The position numbers were made by a program, and so were the translations under genes. The notes beneath the pieces were generated by a model that worked only from the letters and a program-made list of their open reading frames with translations, was not told the origin of the DNA and searched no databases. 24,733 nt of DNA from a virus, in IMG/VR virus record IMGVR_UViG_3300047557_001132, positions 1 to 24,733 of that record. The stretch is one strand, 5' to 3'. Positions 2,745 to 5,681 of this stretch are shown here, one piece after another; position 1 is the first letter of the stretch, and each line of letters starts with the position of its first letter.

Positions 2745-2968
2745 GCGAGCTTGAACACGCCACCCATGACGACTATCAGCAGGCTCTCAAAGACCGCGCC
2801 CGCGCCGCCCTGGCCGAGCCCCAGCCGGAGGGTCCGAGTGGCGATGAAATCTACAAGCTGGCGCTGGAAGGAGACTTTCTTGTCGATGTGGGTGACGGCT
2901 TCACTTGCATGGTTCAAGACGAAGTTGAGTTTGCCCGCGCCGTTCTCGCCCGCTGGGGCAACTCCTAA
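2741..2968 (+). CDS. small acidic hypothetical protein, TTG start
   Basis: A 75-residue acidic protein (SELEHATHDDYQQALKDRAR, then GDEIYKLALEGDFLVDVGDG, then DEVEFARAVLARWGNS). The TTG at 2741 overlaps the preceding stop as TTGA, so translation is probably coupled. An out-of-frame alternative at 2751 gives a basic, low-complexity product and is rejected. The C-terminal segment EFARAVLARWG is a pattern I associate with small cyanophage proteins of unknown function. The stop codon (2966-2968) lies inside a perfect 9-bp hairpin at 2962-2986, so the RNA structure begins before the gene ends. Confidence 0.72.
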   Translation: MSELEHATHDDYQQALKDRARAALAEPQPEGPSGDEIYKLALEGDFLVDVGDGFTCMVQDEVEFARAVLARWGNS

Positions 2969-2986
2969 TTAGGCGCAAATTAGGAG
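2962..2986 (+). other. perfect hairpin over the stop codon of the early operon
   Basis: CTCCTAATT (2962-2970) pairs perfectly with AATTAGGAG (2978-2986) around a 7-base loop. The TAA of the upstream gene lies in the 5' arm. No run of T follows, so it is not a standard intrinsic terminator. It may protect the 3' end of the operon RNA or act as a processing or partial termination signal. Confidence 0.6.
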
Positions 2987-2990
2987 AAAT

Positions 2991-3020
2991 TAGCTGTCAG
3001 CCCTAAATATGGCTGAGCTA
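2991..3020 (+). other. hairpin with 2-base bulge
   Basis: TAGC-TG-TCAGCC (2991-3002) pairs with GGCTGAGCTA (3011-3020): ten base pairs with a TG bulge and an 8-base A/T-rich loop. No T-tract follows. It is the second of a series of hairpins between 2962 and 3230. Confidence 0.55.
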
Positions 3021-3230
3021 TAAACCGGTGAAAAACTGGGTCGGTGGCTGTGGCTCACGCGCCTAACCAGCCTCACCGCTGCCGACCCACCAACGGCCAT
3101 ATCCATAGGAAATCTATGGAACCGCCATCGTAGCGGAAATAGTTGGTCGGTGATTGGTCCGCACGAGGTGCCAACCTCACTGCCGCCGACCACGGCAGAC
3201 CCCGCACCACGCCTTAGGTGGTACTGCGCA
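3021..3230 (+). ncRNA. candidate structured RNA with two related tandem elements
   Basis: This gene-free stretch holds two copies of one design. Element A has an outer stem TGGGTCGG (3037-3044) / CCGACCCA (3082-3089). Element B has TGGTCGG (3144-3150) / CCGACCA (3186-3192). Both continue GTCGGTG, then a variable inner hairpin, then CTCAC-Y-GC-Y-GCCGACC. One G-C pair in A is T-A in B, a compensatory change, and the inner hairpins differ in sequence yet both fold. Between the copies lie hairpins CCATAG/CTATGG (3103-3119) and CCGC/GCGG (3122-3136). After them comes ACCAC/GTGGT (3206-3222). No open frame longer than a few codons was seen. It sits as a leader upstream of the gene at 3245. Strand is assumed from the flanking genes. 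I match it to no known RNA family. Confidence 0.5.
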
Positions 3231-3244
3231 ATCTTACATGAACC

Positions 3245-3910
3245 ATGGCAGCAAAATGGACTGATGCAGAAATGAACCGCTTGCATGAAGCAGCCGGTGA
3301 TCTTCCCAGGTGTCAACTGGTGAGAACTTTCAACCAATGGGCCAAGGAAAATGGCTATCCACAACGTTCGGCAAAGGCAATTTTTGTCAAAGCAAATGTG
3401 ATGGGCCTATCGCTTGCTGCTGTTGGTGAATCAATCACTACTGGCGGCATCGCAAAAATCCTTGAAATCAAAGAAACCACTGTGCAAGGTTGGATGATTA
3501 GATACCCTGATTTACCACGCCGCAAAATCAGGGGTTATTACTACATCAAGCGACGTGAATTGATGCGTTGGGCGATGCAGCATCCACATTTATTTGGCGG
3601 CTTGAAATGGTCTAATCTTGTCCAACTATTTGAAACAGAAGACATTGCAGATTACATCTGCGACAACTTTCCAAATCGCCCCGTTGGGCTAGAGGCAACT
3701 GCTCGCCCTGTCCGCTGCATCACAACAAATGAAATATATCCATCCCTTTCTGCTGCAGCGCGTGCAACGCATATGACGTATCAAGCCATTAGCCTTGGCA
3801 TCCGCGAACAACGACCTGCTTGTGGTTTGCGGTTTGAATTCATCAATGACCCATCAATGCAACAAATGCAAAAGCCGCAAAACCAAGGTAATAGTCACAA
3901 AGCAGCATGA
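3245..3910 (+). CDS. multi-domain DNA-binding protein (HTH plus NUMOD1-like)
   Basis: A 221-residue, basic protein. Residues 4-55 (KWTDAEMNRLHEA and on to KAIFVKANVMGLS) resemble a Myb/SANT-like helical DNA-binding unit. Residues 64-110 (TTGGIAKILEIKETTVQGW, then IRGYYYIKRRELMRWAM) look like a MerR/excisionase-type helix-turn-helix with a wing. Residues 155-199 (PVRCITTNEIYPSLSAAARA, then GLRFEF) match the pattern of NUMOD1, a small DNA-binding repeat commonly attached to homing endonucleases. No HNH or GIY-YIG catalytic motif is present. It may be a regulator or a homing-nuclease relic. It begins just after the structured RNA region, without a clear Shine-Dalgarno site, and its 3' end overlaps the zinc-ribbon gene by 65 bases in another frame. 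Confidence 0.78.
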   Translation: MAAKWTDAEMNRLHEAAGDLPRCQLVRTFNQWAKENGYPQRSAKAIFVKANVMGLSLAAVGESITTGGIAKILEIKETTVQGWMIRYPDLPRRKIRGYYYIKRRELMRWAMQHPHLFGGLKWSNLVQLFETEDIADYICDNFPNRPVGLEATARPVRCITTNEIYPSLSAAARATHMTYQAISLGIREQRPACGLRFEFINDPSMQQMQKPQNQGNSHKAA

Positions 3911-4563: not shown

Positions 4564-5434
4564 TTACCTCAATGCCATTGCACGGCATCCATTGCTGACG
4601 GCTGACCAAGAAATCCAACTGGCGCGTCGTATCGCCCGTATGCAAGAGCTGCGGGCGTTGGATCGTGAACTAACCATTGATGAACGCCGTATTGTTCGCA
4701 GCGGTGAACGCGCACGGCAGACATTTATCAACAGCAATCTGCAGTTGGTGGTTCATGTTGCCAAGAAATATGAACGCCGCAGGCGTCATAGCCTTGAGCT
4801 GATGGACTTGATCCAAGAAGGCAATATTGGCCTTGCGCGTGCAGTTGAATTGTTTGATCACACACGTGGCTATAAGTTTTCAACTTATGCCTATTGGTGG
4901 ATTAAACAGGCAATAACACGCGCCTTGTCGCAAGCTGATGCAATGATCAGGCTGCCAGTTAACTTACATGATCAGCTTGCAAAGTTAACTAGGATGCGCA
5001 CGCAATTAGCGCACGAACTGGGACGCGAACCACGGCTTGCTGAACTTGCAGAAGCAATGGAAATAACCGTAGATCAAATATGTAATATGATCCAGCACAG
5101 CTATAACGTTACTAGCCTTAATTCAACGCCAAACGGCAATGATGATGTTTGCCTAATCGACATGATTGCCGATCCAGCAAGCGTTGATGACGATGAAATA
5201 TCCGAAGCTGAAATAGCTTTAATTTCTTCCTTGTTAGATAAATACGTCGATGAAAACGCCAAGCAAGTGCTATATGCACGTCATGCCGCAAATCCAATCA
5301 GCTGGGCTGAACTTGAAAAGCAAATGGGCATCAGCAAATTTCGCCTTCAAGAACTATCGCGTCGCGCGATCCTTCGGTTGCGTATGTTGACATCCATTGG
5401 CGAATATCAGCCTCACGAAAAGCGGACCATGTGA
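4547..5434 (+). CDS. group 2 sigma-70-like RNA polymerase sigma factor
   Basis: A 295-residue sigma factor with region 1.2 (NDYLNAIARHPLLTADQEIQLARRI, about residues 5-29), region 2 (59-130, including FINSNLQLVVHVAKKY, LDLIQEG-like LMDLIQEGNIGL, and YKFSTYAYWWIKQAITRAL), region 3 (137-215) and region 4 (225-281). There is no region 1.1, so it resembles the alternative group 2 factors of cyanobacteria rather than T4 gp55. Region 2.4, which reads the -10 element, is canonical. Region 4.2 is not: ISWAELEKQMGISKFRLQELSRRAILRLR keeps the fold but changes the recognition helix residues. It probably redirects host polymerase to phage promoters, perhaps those of the late operon on the other strand. 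It is the last clear gene of the plus-strand group. Confidence 0.95.
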   Translation: MSSINDYLNAIARHPLLTADQEIQLARRIARMQELRALDRELTIDERRIVRSGERARQTFINSNLQLVVHVAKKYERRRRHSLELMDLIQEGNIGLARAVELFDHTRGYKFSTYAYWWIKQAITRALSQADAMIRLPVNLHDQLAKLTRMRTQLAHELGREPRLAELAEAMEITVDQICNMIQHSYNVTSLNSTPNGNDDVCLIDMIADPASVDDDEISEAEIALISSLLDKYVDENAKQVLYARHAANPISWAELEKQMGISKFRLQELSRRAILRLRMLTSIGEYQPHEKRTM

Positions 5435-5681
5435 TTTGCTGCCTAAACCATTCCGTCCATTCTTCACTTCCTTTGTTCCGATTGCATCGCTGGCAAGCTG
5501 GCACAAGATTTGCAATCACCGTTGCACCACCGCGATGTCGCGGCCTGATATGGTCCAATGTGTCAGCATGGCTTTTACAATATGCACACCGATGCTGCCA
5601 TGCATCGAAAATTGATTGCCTAAATTGATGCTTTGCTGTTCGCTTCGTGATCAGCTTTGCGCCATCAATTTGGTGATCCAA
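5331..5681 (-). CDS. HNH endonuclease
   Basis: A 116-residue HNH nuclease. Zinc ligands are Cys32/Cys35 (CAYC) and Cys63/Cys66 (CQRC). The active-site strand is TLDHIRPRHRGG with Asp43-His44, and NLVPACQRCNRNKG carries Asn58 and Asn69. The frame offers no ATG, and the TTG at 5681 is the best available start. The 3' end overlaps the sigma factor gene tail-to-tail by 104 bases. Family-like sequence reaches WSAFREADIRQWM (residue 97), so at least 50 bases of the overlap encode recognisable protein in both directions. It could be a packaging-associated nicking enzyme, as HNH proteins near terminases are, or a free-standing homing nuclease. Its insertion between plus-strand genes favours the latter. 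Confidence 0.88.
   Translation of the reverse strand: MDHQIDGAKLITKRTAKHQFRQSIFDAWQHRCAYCKSHADTLDHIRPRHRGGATVIANLVPACQRCNRNKGSEEWTEWFRQQITWSAFREADIRQWMSTYATEGSRDAIVLEGEIC

Follow-up and report, generated by a model that had tools for sequence, protein, structure and literature searches.

A pseudoknot-type family of structured units in cyanophage-like siphoviruses, present as a tandem pair in one virus record

The best reading of one intergenic gap in an IMG/VR-type virus record of 24,733 bases (the window, meaning the whole stretch of DNA analysed) is that it holds two members of an undescribed family of ~100-nt structured units carried by cyanophage-like siphoviruses. Comparison of homologues makes it almost certain that the family has a conserved, selected structure of pseudoknot type. 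The same comparisons, confined as they are to sequence, establish the borders of the unit, its abundance of about one copy per genome, its gain or loss at fixed junctions and its residence at many junctions in either operon. Tentatively, and with rather less than even confidence, we read the unit as an accessory non-coding RNA gene, probably trans-acting, that is carried as a cassette.

The phage and its gene order

On the plus strand, the window opens with genes for an exonuclease (DUF3799), RecT, SSB and a double-psi-beta-barrel protein, followed by the gap studied here. Beyond the gap lie genes for a helix-turn-helix (HTH) protein, an NrdR-like zinc ribbon, a dCTP deaminase and a sigma-70 factor; HNH, lysozyme and structural genes are encoded on the minus strand. 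By RecT and sigma factor, the nearest cultured relatives are Synechococcus siphophages (S-H1 RecT is 75% identical to that of the window; the sigma factors of S-CBS1 and S-CBS3 are ∼40% identical), and the host of the window phage is therefore likely to be a picocyanobacterium. Phages carrying the unit are probably cyanobacterial phages in general. A RecT search of genome contigs returned no cyanobacterial genome. The HTH protein found no relatives when used as bait among viral contigs; a homologue of its gene also comes after a unit in contig L378. A small HNH endonuclease gene sits at the convergence of early and late operons in most mapped phages, often adjoining the unit (window 5331-5681, minus strand).

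Architecture of the unit

Comparison of flanks among homologues puts the full unit at ∼100 nt. The earlier note was right to see two copies of one structured plan in the gap, but the extent that it described is about half of the true unit and misses two helices, P5 and P4. Conservation runs from AAWGGG, just 5′ of P1, to AANNTTAGC ∼45 nt past P1 and then stops abruptly; in a sequence logo, information is high at the conserved letters of AANNTTAGC and low in the bases beyond. Along the strand, the order is AAWGGG, P1 5′ arm, P2/P3 hairpin, P5 5′ arm, P1 3′ arm, P5 3′ arm, P4 and CAANNTTAGC. The window holds two complete units separated by 2 nt, and the last ORF upstream of the gap ends 62 nt before the first of them. 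The features are as follows.

3031..3134, plus strand: unit 1, complete, ∼104 nt (R2 match, 68.9 bits, E 2.9e-20, model positions 1-105)
3039-3044/3082-3087, plus strand: unit 1 P1, GGTCGG/CCGACC, the outer stem as first noted
3047-3050/3068-3071, plus strand: unit 1 P2, paired hairpin stem
3052-3054/3061-3063, plus strand: unit 1 P3, loop TCACGC
3076-3081/3091-3096, plus strand: unit 1 P5, CCGCTG/CAACGG, 5 of 6 pairs, with covariation in the family
3103-3108/3114-3119, plus strand: unit 1 P4 hairpin, CCATAG/CTATGG, a perfect stem with loop GAAAT
3126..3134, plus strand: unit 1 3′ tail, CATCGTAGC (family form CAANNTTAGC), where conservation ends
3137..3238, plus strand: unit 2, complete (R2 match, 66.2 bits, E 2.2e-19)
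3145-3150/3186-3191, plus strand: unit 2 P1, GGTCGG/CCGACC
3154-3157/3171-3174, plus strand: unit 2 P2, TTGG/CCAA
3159-3160/3167-3168, plus strand: unit 2 P3, loop GCACGA
3180-3185/3193-3198, plus strand: unit 2 P5, CTGCCG/CGGCAG, 6 of 6 pairs
3203..3228, plus strand: unit 2 P4, an irregular hairpin CGCACC...GGTGGTACTGCG assigned by inspection, which matches the P4 consensus only weakly in the R2 alignment
3229..3237, plus strand: unit 2 3′ tail, CAATCTTAC (R2 match)
3245..3910, plus strand: HTH protein gene downstream of the units (weak HTH_17/phrog_668 match)

Covariance model R1, which covers the core, matches 3037-3089 within unit 1 (73.6 bits) and 3143-3193 within unit 2 (64.5 bits). The outer stems proposed in the earlier note, TGGGTCGG at 3037-3044 with CCGACCCA at 3082-3089 and TGGTCGG at 3144-3150 with CCGACCA at 3186-3192, lie exactly where it placed them, and the right-hand sequence that it described as common to both copies is present. 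Its inner hairpin for copy 2 (TTG/CAA plus GCAC/GTGC) gives way to the family plan, TTGG/CCAA plus CC/GG, at the P2 and P3 coordinates listed above. Likewise, CTCAC-Y-GC-Y-G, taken there as a conserved unpaired motif, contains CCGCWG, the P5 arm that pairs with CWRCGG after P1.

Against 200 dinucleotide shuffles, the fold of each copy surpasses 198 (z −2.95 and −2.74) and that of the whole gap all 200 (z −3.83). An extra hairpin upstream of unit 1, at window 2991-3018 (TAGCTGTCAGCC...GGCTGAGCTA, z −3.18), lies outside the family unit. In the gap's minimum-energy fold (−104.5 kcal/mol), copies 1 and 2 pair with each other as a long rod, which could suggest that the two units form a single long, imperfect hairpin or are a pair of inverted repeats that arose by chance; this can safely be dismissed, since single units, each covarying within itself, are the rule among homologues and the two window units come from different subfamilies. 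Because nearly all relatives carry a single unit, the rod is a side effect of there being two copies here.

Unit 1 is 78-80% identical to the units of L083 and L378 and 50% identical to unit 2. The window pair, divided between subfamilies, is thus not a recent duplication. In one subfamily (L219, L220, L236 and related units), 3-4 extra bases (GGTG, TTTTTT) in the P2-P5 linker replace CUCAC, which is therefore not essential there. On the minus strand of L083, a 33-bp direct repeat, TGCCGAGCAGATGGTGGGTCGGTAGCCGTGGCT, occurs at ∼1953-1985 and again within ∼2470-2530. It duplicates the 5′ half of the unit where another ORF (MADEIRER...) begins, a layout that recombination within the unit could have produced.

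Homologues and copy number

A pattern taken from the common right arm led to one real homologue, L083, and the RecT relatives of the window to three more (L168, L170 and L127). Apart from L083, nearly all matches of the first 16-mer pattern scan were due to chance. R1 was built from six sequences: these four and the two window copies. It detected a unit at E <1e-6 in 25 of 79 records of RecT relatives, and in L083. Two further patterns combined with R1 gave at least 98 matches at E <2e-5, a few of them in records already seen; matches under 20 bits (L221 to L225, L237 to L241) were left out. The covariance model and search proposed in the earlier note thus yielded more than 100 covarying homologues in viral contigs, which are uncultured phage sequences.

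Scans of four cultured relatives (S-LBS1, S-H1, S-CBS1 and S-CBS3) with the models gave no credible unit, and blastn of the gap, the core and the full consensus against cultured phages and plasmids gave no convincing match. As the earlier note had suspected, no named RNA family fits: the window has no match in Rfam 15 (4,227 families). A relaxed Rfam search (E up to 1) of 12 loci with up to 3 kb around the units also returned no family match, its sole match being an unrelated miRNA far below threshold.

Copy number is low. Of the 23 records of 35 kb or more that give a clear match, 22 contain a single unit, and among 13 RecT relatives of at least 36 kb, seven have a unit and six do not. L366/G081 (37,720 bases) is the only long record with two separated units, which lie on opposite strands.

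Covariation and the predicted pseudoknot

Across 70 distinct sequences, 12 of 16 pairs show two-sided changes, with a covariation score of 0.379 as against 0.128 in column-shuffled alignments and at most 0.10 in slid ones. In 33 units aligned over all five helices, P5 and P4 included, two-sided changes affect 20 of 26 pairs, 87.8% of cells are paired and the score is 0.387 (shuffled 0.143; slid at most 0.10), figures to be read with the caveat that alignments fitted to a model lean toward that model. By helix, two-sided changes occur in five of six pairs of P1 (99.5% of cells paired), four of five of P2 (97.6% paired), three of six of P5 and all seven of P4, whose sequence varies freely while its pairing is kept. 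From alignment A6, made with MAFFT without structure, RNAalifold recovers P1 and P2 unaided. Compensatory changes thus exceed both kinds of control. Because the stems have been preserved by repeated matching mutations, their shape appears to be under selection, and the homologues covary strongly in the way that the earlier note had anticipated, with changing stems and conserved loops. The compensatory change on which that note had relied, from G-C (3038/3088) to T-A (3144/3192), is present but lies at the frayed end of P1, where the position is paired in only 53 of 70 distinct homologues. The convincing covariation is elsewhere.

P5 pairs CCGCWG with CWRCGG immediately past P1. It takes the forms CCGCAG/CTGCGG, CCGCTG/CAGCGG and CTGCCG/CGGCAG; the last, in window unit 2, has two compensated changes relative to the family form CCGCWG/CWGCGG. 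The P1 columns (9-14/56-61) cross those of P5 (50-55/65-70), and both helices covary. Since P5 crosses P1, the predicted fold is an H-type pseudoknot with P2/P3 inside, in which the loop of a local hairpin, P5, pairs with the P1 arm upstream. This loop is short, comprising the P1 3′ arm and 1-3 nt, so P1 and P5 would either form a kissing-like stack or alternate. In unit 2 and L227, the computed energies of these alternatives differ little. We infer that P1 and P5 form simultaneously, although mutually exclusive forms are possible.

The strongest single case in P5 is the pair between columns 54 and 66, which is A-U in 44 rows, U-A in 12 and C-G in one, without exception among 57 rows. It ranks fifth among all column pairs. 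On a tree built without these columns, parsimony counts eight and seven switches in columns 54 and 66, respectively, and the pair appears to have switched independently about seven to eight times. Two sister rows, L362 and L363, differ in P5 by a compensated swap of this pair.

We assume that the element acts as RNA, made from the plus strand. Counts of G-U and A-C mismatches are in balance when two positions are disregarded. In 40 of 57 rows the middle pair of P5 reads C-A, equivalent to G-U on the minus strand, whereas other positions favour the plus strand by this count. Scoring P4 by its best hairpin seemed to favour the minus strand, an effect that disappeared when only flanked internal mismatches were counted (41 G-T versus 30 A-C).

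Placement, gain and loss

The unit is co-directional with the gene upstream, whose stop codon is often only 3-13 nt away. Genes downstream encode a dCTP deaminase, a sigma factor, a hemolysin XhlA-like protein, a VRR-NUC protein, an HTH protein or the product of a small orphan gene. After about 30 of 98 units among the matches listed, the next gene is a convergent HNH gene and no co-directional gene follows. Operons were mapped by marker genes in 20 record stretches and the window. The convergence of early and late operons is recognizable in 17 of these 21, and in all 17 a unit lies in one of the operons and points toward the convergence. Late-operon placement follows the order tail, unit, XhlA, lysozyme, HNH; early-operon placement runs from exonuclease to the unit and then a convergent HNH gene, or has the unit before sigma. 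The orientation of the unit with respect to genes hardly varies, an argument for its being transcribed together with the upstream gene. ORF length failed as a guide to the coding strand near the unit, as antisense ORFs are long.

Relatives with flanks ∼77-94% identical have the same junction without a unit: unit-bearing L217 can be set against L177, L159, L174 and L201, and L209 against L338. Of these, L177, L159 and L174 retain CCAGCCTCAC and TATTTACC, perhaps what is left of a deleted unit. Sharp borders, together with junctions found with and without the unit, fit a cassette.

In five records (L275, L294, L296, L307 and L308), a tRNA-like sequence is found ∼100 nt upstream, directly before the unit, with a T-arm (GCGGGTTCGAGTCCCGC) and an acceptor-like segment (CTGGGTGC). 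ARAGORN called no tRNA next to units, including at the L275-type sequence.

Possible functions

As an accessory cassette, a small non-coding RNA gene could be transcribed within phage operons, as phage tRNAs are, and the unit RNA cut out of the mRNA. It might then act in trans, and the simplest way would be to bind a protein of the host or of the phage; candidate contacts are the conserved apical CUCACG loop, the P2-P5 linker, the A-rich loop of P4 and the UUAGC tail. The window phage would carry two different members of the family in tandem. Placement in one copy, independent of particular genes and in either operon, fits a trans-acting RNA better than an element that controls one gene. Three findings count against an RNA gene. 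No sigma-70-like promoter or intrinsic terminator was found at 2900-3300 of the window. The closeness and shared direction of the upstream gene would also suit a cis-acting mRNA element. Finally, with wobble counts balanced, the active strand is not fixed by sequence. Nor was a T run, as expected of an intrinsic terminator, seen after P4 in the aligned units. A bolder and rather doubtful proposal is that of a movable, pseudoknotted RNA gene of ∼100 nt, gained, lost and repositioned by cyanophages like an accessory protein gene, that serves as a trans-acting decoy or inhibitor in host takeover or counter-defence and of which a single genome can stack different alleles.

The main rival, possible though not probable, is a cis-acting intercistronic mRNA element that affects processing or stability: a pseudoknot after the upstream stop codon would be an RNase processing site, like the RNase III sites of T7, or would block 3′-5′ exonucleases and so stabilize the upstream mRNA. 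The position just after a co-directional gene, the pointing of units toward the early/late convergence, a hairpin whose internal loop is asymmetric, and the presence of a stable pseudoknot at a 3′ end all suit such an element. It accounts poorly for a single copy that appears in either operon beside different neighbours and is absent from the same junction in close relatives, and the loop sequences are conserved beyond the needs of an RNase III site.

The accessory RNA gene that we prefer must also be weighed against an element acting at the DNA level, whether a small mobile unit of the non-autonomous type or a site of recombination that adopts its fold in single-stranded DNA. Sharp borders, presence or absence at junctions, varying positions and two unlike units side by side would be natural for such an element, as would wobble types that favour neither strand, the frequent adjacency of an HNH gene and the partial repeat of the 5′ half of the unit in L083. 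Yet it is unlikely: copies are nearly single and almost constantly oriented with respect to transcription, neither a terminal inverted repeat nor a target duplication is seen at empty sites, core sites of the integron attC type were not seen, and no transposase was noticed, in passing, nearby.

Poorer still are the prospects of a riboswitch-like or protein-responsive leader for the next gene, its response sharpened by the tandem pair. The aptamer-like plan with conserved loops does bring such leaders to mind, as does a second hairpin near the start codon, and an ATG often lies 6-30 nt past the unit in holin-like, sigma and dCTP deaminase contexts. But many units, namely those with a convergent HNH gene after them, lack a gene that they could control, which makes a leader switch the least likely of the live options. 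The downstream genes share no common pathway, and none of the Rfam families matches. The likeness to tandem riboswitches drawn in the earlier note does not hold up either: tandem copies are exceptional, the two window units share just 50% identity and belong to different subfamilies, and at least six unrelated genes, or no co-directional gene, come after the unit. Single copies, changing junctions and distinct subfamilies argue against a riboswitch tied to one gene.

Relation to known systems

Intercistronic RNase III sites of T7 are numerous in the genome and show little loop conservation. The unit resembles them in lying between co-directional phage genes and in having an irregular hairpin with an asymmetric internal loop, but differs in its conserved loops, its pseudoknot and its presence in about one copy. 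Integron attC sites are ∼100 bp long, follow the stop codon of a gene in the same direction and conserve structure over sequence, all of which holds for the unit as well. Unlike attC, it has no cassette array, is nearly single-copy and varies in the sequence of its outer stem. It also lacks the terminal RYYYAAC/GTTRRRY core pair; its borders, AAWGGG and AANNTTAGC, are not mutual inverted repeats.

The promoter-early-stem-loop (PeSL) cassettes of T4-like phages (Arbiol et al. 2010; Comeau et al. 2014; both cited in PMC4503421) are described in PMC4503421 as composite promoter-terminator motifs found at high density in shuffled regions. As there described, they share with the unit a small intergenic cassette with a stem-loop and changing gene junctions. 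By the same description, a PeSL combines a promoter with a terminator stem-loop in many copies per genome, whereas the unit has neither a promoter nor a terminator signature, is present in about one copy and forms a pseudoknot with covarying stems.

Among non-coding RNAs reported in cyanophage genomes are the antisense RNA CfrI and abiF, the latter identified through Rfam (PMC9964418). Compared by description, CfrI is akin to the unit as a cyanophage non-coding RNA; abiF is set apart because none of the 4,227 Rfam families matches the unit. The RNAs wcaG, manA and PhotoRC-II are cyanophage structured RNAs that lie in 5′ UTRs belonging to defined classes of genes (Weinberg et al. 2010, PMC2864571). 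Like the unit, they are conserved structured RNAs of cyanophages and environmental DNA that were found by comparative genomics; the unit differs in that the gene downstream of it is not fixed and no Rfam family matches it.

Few structured RNAs of cyanophages have been named, and most lie in leaders of metabolic genes. The present family turns up commonly among uncultured siphovirus contigs; comparative support for it is strong, and its behaviour resembles that of a movable accessory gene. Should it prove to encode a trans-acting RNA, it would open a testable question of how these phages use RNA to control their hosts. If it is no more than an mRNA element, its structure and model would still allow such regions to be annotated, and P1 and P5 offer clean mutational tests. 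Because wcaG, manA and PhotoRC-II are leaders, PeSLs are dense and Rfam has no match, the unit is classed not with any of these but as a new family among phage-borne structured non-coding elements.
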